The translations under genes and the position numbers were made by a program. The notes under the pieces were generated by a model that searched no databases, was not told the origin of the DNA, and was given only the letters and a program-made list of their open reading frames with translations. Below, one piece after another: positions 4,541-5,912 of a stretch of DNA of 64,000 nucleotides. This stretch comes from an uncultured Psychroserpens sp. (GTDB lineage Bacteria > Bacteroidota > Bacteroidia > Flavobacteriales > Flavobacteriaceae), in NCBI RefSeq assembly GCF_947501425.1, contig NZ_CANMVN010000001.1, forward strand, positions 434,001-498,000, in the 5' to 3' direction. Numbering within the stretch: position 1 is the stretch's first letter; the number at the start of each line of letters is the position of its first letter.

Positions 4541-4575
4541 AAAAAGCGCAATTCAAAATTTGGATTGCGCTTTTT
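4541..4575 (+). terminator. Intrinsic terminator after odhB
   Basis: Perfect inverted repeat AAAAAGCGCAAT (4541-4552) and ATTGCGCTTTTT (4564-4575) with a short A/T-rich loop, 27 bases past the odhB stop. The U-rich end faces the plus strand, and the mirrored A/T tract lets it also stop minus-strand transcription from the small ORF region. Confidence 0.85.
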
Positions 4576-4604: not shown

Positions 4605-4715
4605 CTAAAAAAAATTCACAAGAATATTTATTGATATAATTAAAATGGCACTAAAGATTAAGCCTGCTATAAATAGTTTGTTAGTGAGGCTGTGTTTGTT
4701 TTTCATCGTTTCCAT
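4605..4715 (-). CDS. Small single-membrane-span protein (36 aa)
   Basis: A short frame on the minus strand: ATG at 4715 (METMKNKHSL...), or the second ATG at 4706, with TAG at 4605-4607. The product has a short basic/polar head followed by one hydrophobic span (FIAGLIFSAILIISINILV) and ends ILVNFF. It lies directly downstream of the third palindrome-terminator unit on the same strand, whose hairpin ends about 35 bases before the ATG. I do not recognise a family. Tiny hydrophobic peptides with basic heads include type I toxins and small regulators, but nothing here proves either, and chance coding is possible at this length. Confidence 0.35.
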   Translation of the reverse strand: METMKNKHSLTNKLFIAGLIFSAILIISINILVNFF

Positions 4716-4749: not shown

Positions 4750-4844
4750 AATAAAGCTCTGAGCTTATGAAGACACTCAGAGCCTTATATACCCTAATTA
4801 ATTAATAGAGTTACTATAAATAAATCCCTCTAATATTAATAACT
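4750..4844 (-). ncRNA. Putative small RNA 3 of the response-regulator array
   Basis: Predicted transcript of about 95 nt on the minus strand. A -7-like box GAATTTTA (4858-4851) lies exactly 22 bases after the palindrome at 4881-4898, so initiation is expected near 4844. The RNA would carry TTATTAAT, then GAGGGATT (4830-4823), and end in a hairpin of about 13 bp (GCTCTGAG core, 4776-4788 with 4751-4763) with a weak U tract. Units 1 and 2 have the same order of elements. It also contains a possible 21-codon frame (MANFTPELL...) starting upstream of the predicted start site, so a tiny peptide is an alternative. No experimental support. Confidence 0.5.
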
Positions 4845-4880
4845 CTGGTGTAAAATTCGCCATTAATCCAACATCAAACA

Positions 4881-4898
4881 ATACGTAGTTCTACGTAT
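4881..4898. promoter_or_regulatory. 18-bp palindrome, copy 3 (probable regulator site)
   Basis: Perfect palindrome ATACGTAGTTCTACGTAT with a 2-bp centre, identical to copies at 5063-5080 and 5201-5218. On the minus strand it is followed by TTG and then, 22 bases on, a -7-like box. NarL/FixJ-type regulators bind short inverted repeats in such positions, and a gene for one lies next door; the pairing of protein and site is inference. Confidence 0.7.
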
Positions 4899-4957
4899 AT
4901 TTCATATTTAAAGTGTTAAAATTTGAGATGAGTTAGGATTACGGTGGTTTAAAACAC

Positions 4958-5027
4958 AAAAAAGCTCTAAACCAAAATGATCTAGAGCTTTTATTCCTCT
5001 GTTTTATGAAAGGAAATTGATTAATAG
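4958..5027 (-). ncRNA. Putative small RNA 2 of the response-regulator array
   Basis: Predicted RNA of about 70 nt on the minus strand. Box TAAGTTTG (5040-5033) fits TAnnTTTG exactly and lies 22 bases after the palindrome at 5063-5080. The start is expected near 5027, so the RNA would begin GCTATTAATC. It ends in a hairpin (TAGAGCTTTT 4983-4992 with AAAAGCTCTA 4960-4969) followed by six U residues, a good intrinsic terminator. AGAGGAAT (5000-4993) precedes the terminator stem. No ATG-initiated frame is present, which favours a non-coding RNA. Confidence 0.6.
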
Positions 5028-5062
5028 CGTCACAAACTTAGCTAATAAATTAAAGTCAATCA

Positions 5063-5080
5063 ATACGTAGTTCTACGTAT
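5063..5080. promoter_or_regulatory. 18-bp palindrome, copy 2 (probable regulator site)
   Basis: Same 18 bases as copies 1 and 3 (ATACGTAGTTCTACGTAT). It is centred about 45 bases before the predicted start of small RNA 2 and abuts a -33-like TTG, the geometry of an activator site next to the core promoter. Confidence 0.7.
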
Positions 5081-5096
5081 TTTTTGGCTTTAACAT

Positions 5097-5165
5097 AAAA
5101 AAACTCTGAATCGATAAACAATCCAGAGCTTTAGTTATTAAATCCTCCCTATAAAGATTAATAGC
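5097..5165 (-). ncRNA. Putative small RNA 1 of the response-regulator array
   Basis: Predicted RNA of about 69 nt on the minus strand. The box GATATTTG (5178-5171) is one base off TAnnTTTG and lies 22 bases after palindrome copy 1. The expected start near 5165 gives GCTATTAATCT, then AGGGAGGATT, then a hairpin (GCTCTGGAT with ATTCAGAG) and seven U residues. It also serves as the likely terminator of the response-regulator mRNA, whose stop codon lies inside palindrome copy 1. GCTATTAATCT is an 11-base perfect complement of the regulator's mRNA leader. Confidence 0.6.
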
Positions 5166-5200
5166 TAATACAAATATCAGTATTAAAACAAATAGAGTCA

Positions 5201-5218
5201 ATACGTAGTTCTACGTAT
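5201..5218. promoter_or_regulatory. 18-bp palindrome, copy 1, overlapping the regulator stop codon
   Basis: Third identical copy of ATACGTAGTTCTACGTAT. The last codons of the response regulator (Tyr-Thr-stop) are read from its first half on the minus strand. The site therefore lies at the very 3' end of the gene and upstream of the promoter of small RNA 1. Confidence 0.7.
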
Positions 5219-5846: not shown

Positions 5847-5912
5847 TGGGCTATTAATCTGAGGGATTGTTGTATAAAGATAAAGAGTTTTTGCTAACCT
5901 TTATACATAATT

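Follow-up and report, generated by a model that had tools for sequence, protein, structure and literature searches.

A tandem array of predicted small RNAs behind a LuxR-type response regulator in Flavobacteriaceae, and its proposed circuit

Closest described systems and the array in the window

The NarL/FixJ-family regulators GacA and UvrY activate the RsmY, RsmZ and CsrB RNAs through an upstream palindrome, and the Rsm/Csr RNAs titrate CsrA through many GGA loops. Bacteroidota have pairs of a TPR histidine kinase and a LuxR-type response regulator. In Vibrio, LuxO is an NtrC-type, sigma-54-dependent regulator, and the Qrr RNAs require Hfq. Several related short Qrr RNAs are reported to repress the regulator mRNA of their own circuit (PMC2680268). 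In Flavobacterium psychrophilum, structured RNAs including Rfp18, which is reported to be needed for precise protease expression, and TAnnTTTG promoters are described in a study in which the sigma-A -7 box TAnnTTTG is placed at positions -12 to -5 (PMC9723704).

The locus described here lies in a window of 64 kb (the whole stretch of DNA that was analysed; contig C1, 434001-498000, within a 3.7-Mb assembly that is 99.98% complete). No description of its circuit was found in the open-licence literature. The regulator combines a receiver domain with a GerE helix-turn-helix, as in NarL/FixJ (LuxR-type) proteins, and its nearest named relatives belong to Psychroserpens. By prediction, the locus would resemble LuxO/Qrr as a response-regulator circuit in which multiple related RNAs under one regulator repress the mRNA of the circuit's regulator. 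In contrast to LuxO/Qrr, the regulator is of the GerE type with no AAA+ domain among its Pfam matches, the promoters have a sigma-A-type -7 box, and no match to Hfq (PF17209) was found in the genome itself, the same search being positive in 5 of 14 control genomes including E. coli and B. subtilis. To our knowledge, many relatives likewise lack Hfq. The Qrr covariance model was absent both at the gathering score and among 16 permissive Rfam matches. The circuit departs from the Vibrio family in the class of its regulator, in sigma type and in Hfq and so is not a member of it, yet it would resemble the Vibrio multi-copy sRNA circuits in its action. With the GacA-Rsm/Csr systems the locus has in common a NarL/FixJ-family regulator and an upstream palindrome before small RNAs, but here type A RNAs (see below) have a single GGG block together with a 5' tail, and match mRNA in antisense, and neither gathering nor permissive Rfam matches to CsrB/RsmY were found. 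The F. psychrophilum sRNAs come from the same bacterial family, and Rfp18 was set beside the present RNAs by description only.

The likeness to TPR kinase/LuxR pairs is seen in RNA-less loci (n = 16), where the regulator start overlaps or closely trails an upstream frame resembling a histidine kinase (TPR-like repeats and a kinase end in three, the rest judged by eye). This frame was written out in three of the eight loci scanned by text pattern, and was repeat-rich with a DLHDG(L/I)GQ motif and the C-terminal half of a kinase; we take the motif to be HisKA_3-like, accompanied by TPR repeats. Most RNA-bearing loci, in contrast, have an RNA array and no kinase, G169 being an apparent exception. 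The regulator had been called an orphan in the first-pass annotation. This stands for the window, where an aspartyl-protease-like gene occupies the upstream position of the kinase frame, but not for the 16 RNA-less loci.

The same annotation had described three palindrome, promoter and hairpin units on the minus strand, with the stop codon of the regulator inside the first palindrome, and this anatomy was confirmed (Table 1). The 18-mer ATACGTAGAACTACGTAT has three perfect minus-strand copies in the window; with up to three mismatches allowed, six matches were found, corresponding to all three sites on both strands (0.02 expected; six or more in 0 of 100 shuffles), and none elsewhere in the 64 kb. 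Each palindrome is separated from its -7 box by 22 nt, as had been noted, and the TATTAAT reported downstream of each box is present at 7, 6 and 9 nt in units 1, 2 and 3, respectively. RNA 5' ends are predicted near 5166/5165, 5028 and 4846, respectively, and folding z-scores of the units were -4.7, -4.1 and -4.4 compared to shuffles. A hairpin with a U tail had been claimed for every unit; strong stems were found in all three, but the terminator scan returned a U-tailed terminator in units 1 and 2 only, the U tract of unit 3 (UUUAUUGA) being weak.

Table 1. Features of the regulator locus; positions are those of the window
Feature	Position	Strand	Description	Basis
LuxR/GerE-type response regulator, 211 aa	5211..5846	-	receiver domain; presumed activator	Pfam Response_reg 1.5e-25, GerE 6e-15
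Predicted -7 box TATCTTTA of the regulator's own promoter	5875..5882	-	predicted start ~5870	box position rule from PMC9723704
Predicted sRNA-binding site AATCCCTCAGATTAATAGC in regulator leader	5850..5868	-	end 3 nt 5' of start codon	
Palindrome 1	5201..5218	-	presumed regulator-binding site; regulator stop codon inside	pattern search
-7 box of unit 1, GATATTTG	5178-5171	-	22 nt 3' of palindrome 1	
Unit 1, type A RNA, ~70 nt (predicted)	5097..5166	-	AGCUAUUAAU tail, AGGGAG block, U-tailed terminator	
Palindrome 2	5063..5080	-		pattern search
-7 box of unit 2, TAAGTTTG	5040-5033	-	exact consensus; 22 nt 3' of palindrome 2	
Unit 2, type B RNA, ~71 nt (predicted)	4958..5028	-	GCUAUUAAUCAAUUUCCUUU hairpin, U-tailed terminator	
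Palindrome 3	4881..4898	-		pattern search
-7 box of unit 3, GAATTTTA	4858-4851	-	22 nt 3' of palindrome 3	
Unit 3, type C RNA, ~97 nt (predicted)	4750..4846	-	weak U tract; probably doubles as peptide mRNA leader	
36-aa peptide, METMKNKHSLTNKLFIAGLIFSAILIISINILVNFF	4605..4715	-	one predicted membrane span; similar ORFs at same place family-wide	

Conservation of the palindrome and its presumed activator

The pattern TACGTANNNNTACGTATTG was present in 23 of 23 genomes sampled from the genus, and its reversed control in none of them. The array adjoins the regulator in 22 of the 23, the exception being G011, and the same proportion of genus arrays hold two to four TACGTA-class units, G011 having one. 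Among 249 Flavobacteriaceae genomes, the palindrome pattern with TTG was found in 57 (reversed control, 0 of 249) and a regulator match at E<=1e-42 in 111. The family set consisted of 40 regulator loci ranked by similarity after two own-genus ones, without the palindrome as a criterion. In these the palindrome was present in 40 of 40, lay within 40 nt of the stop codon in 38, and the first palindrome had a -7 box at 22 nt in all 40; relatives keeping the regulator yet lacking the palindrome at the 22-base spacing were sought and amounted to 0 of 40 loci. With 22 genus loci added, which were found through the palindrome, the palindrome was present in 62 of 62 loci and within 40 nt of the stop codon in 56, compared to a mean of 1.75 of 62 over 20 shuffles and 0 of 62 for the regulator coding sequence. 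The box NAnnTTT(A/G/T) stood exactly 22 nt away in 118 of 123 sites, one of which is an obvious terminator stem, and every other offset reached at most 7. The loci are akin and not independent, and P values are guides only.

A mobile or REP-like repeat was rejected, because the array holds its position downstream of the regulator and keeps a constant spacing over diverged filler. Six exact copies of the 16-mer palindrome occur in the genome itself, in the array and on C4, C5 and C7; those on C4 and C5 have no adjacent TTG and no proper box at 22. As judged by comparison of these loci, the arrangement is old, widespread and real.

When the F. psychrophilum box rule was applied, the 18-mer fell at -52 to -35, with its centre at approximately -43.5, and the predicted +1 was the G of GCTATTAAT, or one to two bases earlier, in most units. 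The palindrome thus lies where a class II activator, which touches polymerase from a site immediately 5' of the core promoter, would sit at a sigma-A-type promoter.

In aligned DNA-binding domains, QN(S/N)L followed by IW was found in nine of nine proteins from loci with an ANGT palindrome core, and QN(S/N)L in only one of 55 non-ANGT loci (G098, by eye a chance match further along). Cores of the type GNN(C/T) went with (L/I)(Y/F) without IW in 31 of 33 proteins, and TACGTG arms with EKHRSN in 16 of 16, most others having EKHKS. On a tree built on the receiver domain, outside the DNA-binding part, the ANGT label requires eight changes, at least five of them being forced by well-supported branches (18 of the 60 inner branches are left open). 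Both partners have recently been swapped between Winogradskyella arenosi and W. eckloniae and, within the genus, in G019, where all three palindromes have switched jointly and the counterpart of the array palindrome TACGTAGAACTACGTA, presumed to be bound by the regulator, has an ANGT core. Since palindrome core and C-terminal helix have co-switched repeatedly, the adjacent regulator very probably binds the palindrome, and among the comparative results this co-switching is the strongest evidence for the neighbouring regulator as the binder. The earlier proposal, that the regulator would switch on the three RNAs, is supported by comparison, with the palindrome and box at 22 in 40 of 40 loci. The co-switching provides a natural experiment for decoding LuxR-type regulators.

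In G011 the array still has its three RNA units and the peptide but not the regulator, no relative of which was found at E<=1e-25 in this 99% complete genome. Its palindromes are AGGTAAATATACCT, CACGTAGATATACCT and TACGTATTTCTACGTA, two of the three being other-class or hybrid. The RNAs have outlived their regulator there, which makes G011 a natural experiment on rewiring. Units kept without the regulator gene could also be read as a sign that a different regulator of the same kind binds the palindromes and that the neighbourhood is coincidental, as could a second palindrome class, AGGTAnnnnTACCT, which has an identical spacing of 22 nt and in some genomes precedes extra units, so that related regulators seem to share the architecture. 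This reading is very improbable: it is this protein's C-terminal helix that has co-switched several times with the palindrome core, this gene is followed by the site in all 40 family loci, and the genome lacking the gene is the one in which two of three palindromes are of the other class or hybrid. Binding by the neighbouring regulator is the reading retained below.

The RNAs, the membrane peptide and predicted pairing with the regulator leader

The RNAs have a common 5' end, GCUAUUAAU or a close variant, at the predicted start. Type A consists of GCUAUUAAU(UA)GUUCUUAGGGAGAAUU and a terminator, type B of GCUAUUAAUCAAUUUCCUUU...AAAGGAU and a terminator, and type C, a longer form also present in the genus, is located before the peptide. 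When 21 type A units were aligned, 9 of 14 predicted pairs were changed on both sides with pairing kept, all of them in the terminator stem; the small first hairpin was not called by RNAalifold in these 21 units. A covariance model of type A had matches at E<=0.01 in 96 of the 249 Flavobacteriaceae genomes, with the match to unit 1 at 439094-439165 in genome coordinates. At E<=1e-6, 73 of the 86 matches listed lay within 1.2 kb downstream of the regulator on the same strand and 13 elsewhere. The RNA is carried just behind the regulator in 62 of the 67 genomes with a match at this level, most of the 62 being unused in training; the model was trained on regulator-adjacent units of 20 genomes, 16 of which are in the sample, and the regulator-adjacent matches of these 16 are therefore built in. 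The covariance modelling proposed in the first-pass annotation yielded covariation in the terminator stem and a model that places an RNA behind the regulator, in keeping with the claim of three paralogous RNAs, to which it must be added that unit 3 is probably also a peptide leader.

RNA copies away from the regulator were seen in G027 (C3), G039 (C1), G145 (C120), G267 (C3), G083 (C78) and G261 (C1), and RNAs without a regulator match close by in G062, G072, G142, G174 and G218. At the gathering score, the only Rfam match in the window was a tRNA elsewhere, and the array units were unmatched. Assignment to a known RNA family was rejected, the 16 permissive matches belonging to mutually unrelated families and all falling far below their gathering scores; the best was Atu_C9 (E 0.00077, 22.8 bits against a gathering score of 40), which fell on the hairpin next to odhB, followed by rli40 (E 0.0015, 23.2 of 100) at unit 2.

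In 60 of 62 loci the 1.1 kb that follow the regulator contain an ORF of 25-76 aa with one strongly hydrophobic span (G261 is cut by a contig end, G061 has none, and the ORF caught in G169 looks spurious by eye), the typical peptide ends being NILVNFF or NYFVS. The antisense arrangement of type I toxin-antitoxin systems was not found, as the units lie on the peptide's strand and before it. In the window, a near-perfect hairpin (4541-4575, arms 94% complementary) lies 3' of the peptide gene, preceded by TTATTAGGGAG, which resembles the type A block; it is probably a terminator common to the peptide gene and an odhB-like gene, the latter named by eye.

In the 16 kinase-type loci, the triplet at the predicted +1 is ATG in 10 and GTG in 2, which would put the start codon at the very 5' end of the peptide mRNA. 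To judge from the sequences, the peptide seems there to be expressed straight from the palindrome promoter, without any RNA unit in between. In RNA-bearing loci the peptide follows a unit, and in several genera more than one unit is followed by a peptide. From the direct arrangement in the former and the trailing position in the latter, we infer that the RNA array arose as the leader of the peptide mRNA and then multiplied. The same arrangement could mean that the units are still no more than duplicated 5' leaders, or attenuators, of the peptide mRNA and that the short RNAs are by-products of premature termination. Consistent with this are the direct drive in kinase-type loci, the peptide after the single unit of single-unit loci and after more than one unit in several genera, and the weak U tract of the last unit, missed by the terminator scan, but units 1 and 2 are U-tailed and are followed by the next palindrome instead of an ORF, and the 5' tail and AGGG block are conserved beyond the needs of attenuation. 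Moreover, a site complementary to the RNA is present in the regulator leader and in some other leaders, and G011 keeps three units, though the peptide too. On balance the attenuator reading is unlikely, and short RNAs with targets of their own are preferred.

The predicted regulator mRNA starts near 5870 with ACAAUCCCUCAGAUUAAUAGCCCA, 24 nt 5' of the AUG, and by eye a similar -7 box is found at the equivalent position in most regulator leaders of the genus. Within this leader, AUUAAUAGC is perfectly complementary to GCUAUUAAU at the RNA 5' end, and (A)UCCCU(C) to the AGGGA block found in types A and C, with the two blocks in the correct order. Because GCUAUUAAU and the AGGGA block are complementary to the 24-nt leader, negative feedback on the regulator is predicted, and this prediction is new relative to the earlier reading. 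The duplex energy of unit 1 was lowest with the regulator leader among 41 leaders of long ORFs in the window (-22.6 kcal/mol, compared to -20.6 for the next and a mean of -11.6). For units 2 and 3, four and one of the 41 background leaders, respectively, were equally strong (the background including the regulator's own), and the regulator leader was not clearly the best.

Of the 45 RNA-bearing loci, 18 have the exact 9-mer ATTAATAGC in the regulator leader (9 of 22 in the genus and 9 of 23 in other genera; 0.06 expected from shuffles) compared to 0 of 17 others, and TCCCT occurs in 31 of 45 compared to 1 of 17, the single match being G178, which is counted in the RNA-less class of 17 and carries divergent units, hence the 16 kinase-type loci. 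The leaders of G143, G230, G104 and G192, whose downstream DNA is absent from the set, were left out; the exact 9-mer occurs in one of these four. Neither exact block was present in the RNA-bearing G130, G060, G109, G087, G128, G253, G169 and G016, and the blocks or their remnants were in reversed order in G221, G230 and G080. With approximately eight RNA-bearing loci without blocks and three reversed, the feedback may not extend to every locus. The tail that would pair hardly varies, and therefore offers no compensatory change with which to test the pairing. As G011 keeps three units without a regulator match, feedback cannot be the sole role of the RNAs.

In the genome itself, the two-block motif has eight matches with a block spacing of 1-6 nt: the RNA gene read backwards, the regulator leader, L313 (2 nt 5' of the AUG of a 129-aa gene), L312 and L315 (just before intrinsic terminators), L316 (an upstream region) and two inside genes on the other strand. 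Across the 23 genus genomes, CCCTN{1,8}TTAATAGC gave 154 matches compared to 44 for the reversed control, part of the 154 being RNA genes read backwards and regulator leaders, with no second target established. These distributions bear on whether AUCCCU..AUUAAUAGC might instead be an element that does not act through RNA, for example the site of a second regulator near transcription starts, in which case the RNAs would have other targets and there would be no feedback. Such an element would accord with the exact 9-mer being missing from 27 of 45 RNA-bearing leaders and the order reversed in a few, with motif copies that precede terminators instead of start codons, and with two of the eight own-genome matches lying inside genes; however, the motif reads as the reverse complement of the 5' part of the RNA, mostly in order, a block spacing of 1-6 nt suits bulged RNA pairing over a protein site, and the exact 9-mer is in 0 of 17 other leaders. 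We regard it as improbable and retain pairing between RNA and leader as the working explanation.

A counterpart of the L315 copy, likewise provided with a TAnnTTTG box and a terminator, is present in both G005 and G011. In these three genomes (L315, L308 and L291) a TAnnTTTG box, ATCCCTAATTAATAGC and a terminator lie downstream of a gene that is Crp-like by eye. We conjecture that the L315-type transcript is a candidate sponge RNA.

The proposed circuit and lone palindrome promoters

Taken as a whole, sequence comparison makes a compact, self-limiting circuit of a regulator and tandem RNAs likely. Across this large and mainly aquatic family, the regulator appears to control between one and four such RNAs. 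First, a dimer of the regulator on the palindrome, just upstream of polymerase, would activate sigma-A-type promoters; we hold this step with high confidence from comparison across loci. Second, the three promoters would yield RNAs of approximately 70, 71 and 97 nt starting with (A)GCUAUUAAU or a close variant, for which the comparison gives good, slightly lower confidence. Third, Hfq-free pairing of the 5' tail and AGGGA block with AUCCCU..AUUAAUAGC, which makes up most of the regulator leader, would block translation of the regulator and so exert negative feedback, and other mRNAs with this site would be co-targets, candidates being the 129-aa gene of L313 and the genes that follow L312 and L316; complementarity and distribution of the site tilt the balance only slightly in favour of this step. 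Fourth, read-through of the weak last terminator would express the membrane peptide as the older target of the promoter, a step that the anatomy makes moderately probable.

Outside the arrays, 61 sites in 57 stretches were collected, namely the 25 non-array sites listed for the genus, and 32 stretches taken from seven genomes of other genera in which sites are numerous (part of their sites), and NAnnTT stood at 22 in 55 of the 61. The proteins downstream of lone sites include Septu-like PtuA/B, TIR, SEFIR, SIR2, AbiH, FRG, DUF4062, phage-tail-sheath, lipoprotein-like and uncharacterised ones, Pfam having been run on 40 of 59. Lone promoters lie directly before anti-phage-type genes at L083, L089, L099, L167, L168, L174 and L186. 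At L092, one lies before a phage-tail-sheath-like gene (Pfam), which is perhaps part of a contractile injection system. The two further TTG sites of the genome itself, besides the array, are L105 (C6:222054), before a ParA-like ATPase, and L106 (C7:69398), before a 97-aa protein and with a good TAGGTTTA box at 22.

At E<=1e-35, PADLOC matches were found for at least 7 of 59 downstream proteins compared to 0 of 59 control proteins (P 0.013), at a cut-off chosen after inspection of the data; at E<=1e-20, the values were at least 8 of 59 compared to at most 4 of 59 (P 0.36). The counts are minima, with 25 of 97 matching families covered and 20 of the 59 proteins scanned singly, and one strong match, PDC-M64A, was left unassigned to a downstream protein. 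The controls were the largest ORFs of stretches some tens of kb distant within each genome, with a greater median length (374 compared to 294 aa). The enrichment depends on the cut-off, and so a defence regulon at lone palindromes is only suggestive, as is their position before genes of secreted proteins.

The second class, AGGTAnnnnTACCT followed by ATTG, had the 22-nt spacing in nine of nine non-array sites and occurs in 12 of 23 genus genomes, at times before an extra RNA unit of the array (L152-L159 and L107; within arrays L060, L062, L064, L070, L076, L077, L079 and L080). At L156 and L159 it precedes a gene that by eye resembles a tail-tube protein.

Regulatory RNA in Bacteroidota is poorly understood, partly because Hfq is lacking, as in this genome. 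The sRNA class described here has model matches at E<=1e-6 in 67 of the 249 Flavobacteriaceae genomes sampled and no Rfam match in the window, and its likely activator, promoter grammar, start site and first predicted target are all legible from the sequence. It is a tentative and rather doubtful extension that a Hfq-independent circuit may operate throughout the Flavobacteriaceae, in which a self-limiting RNA array would be joined by independent sponge RNAs and by strain-specific anti-phage and surface genes recruited through the palindrome promoter.
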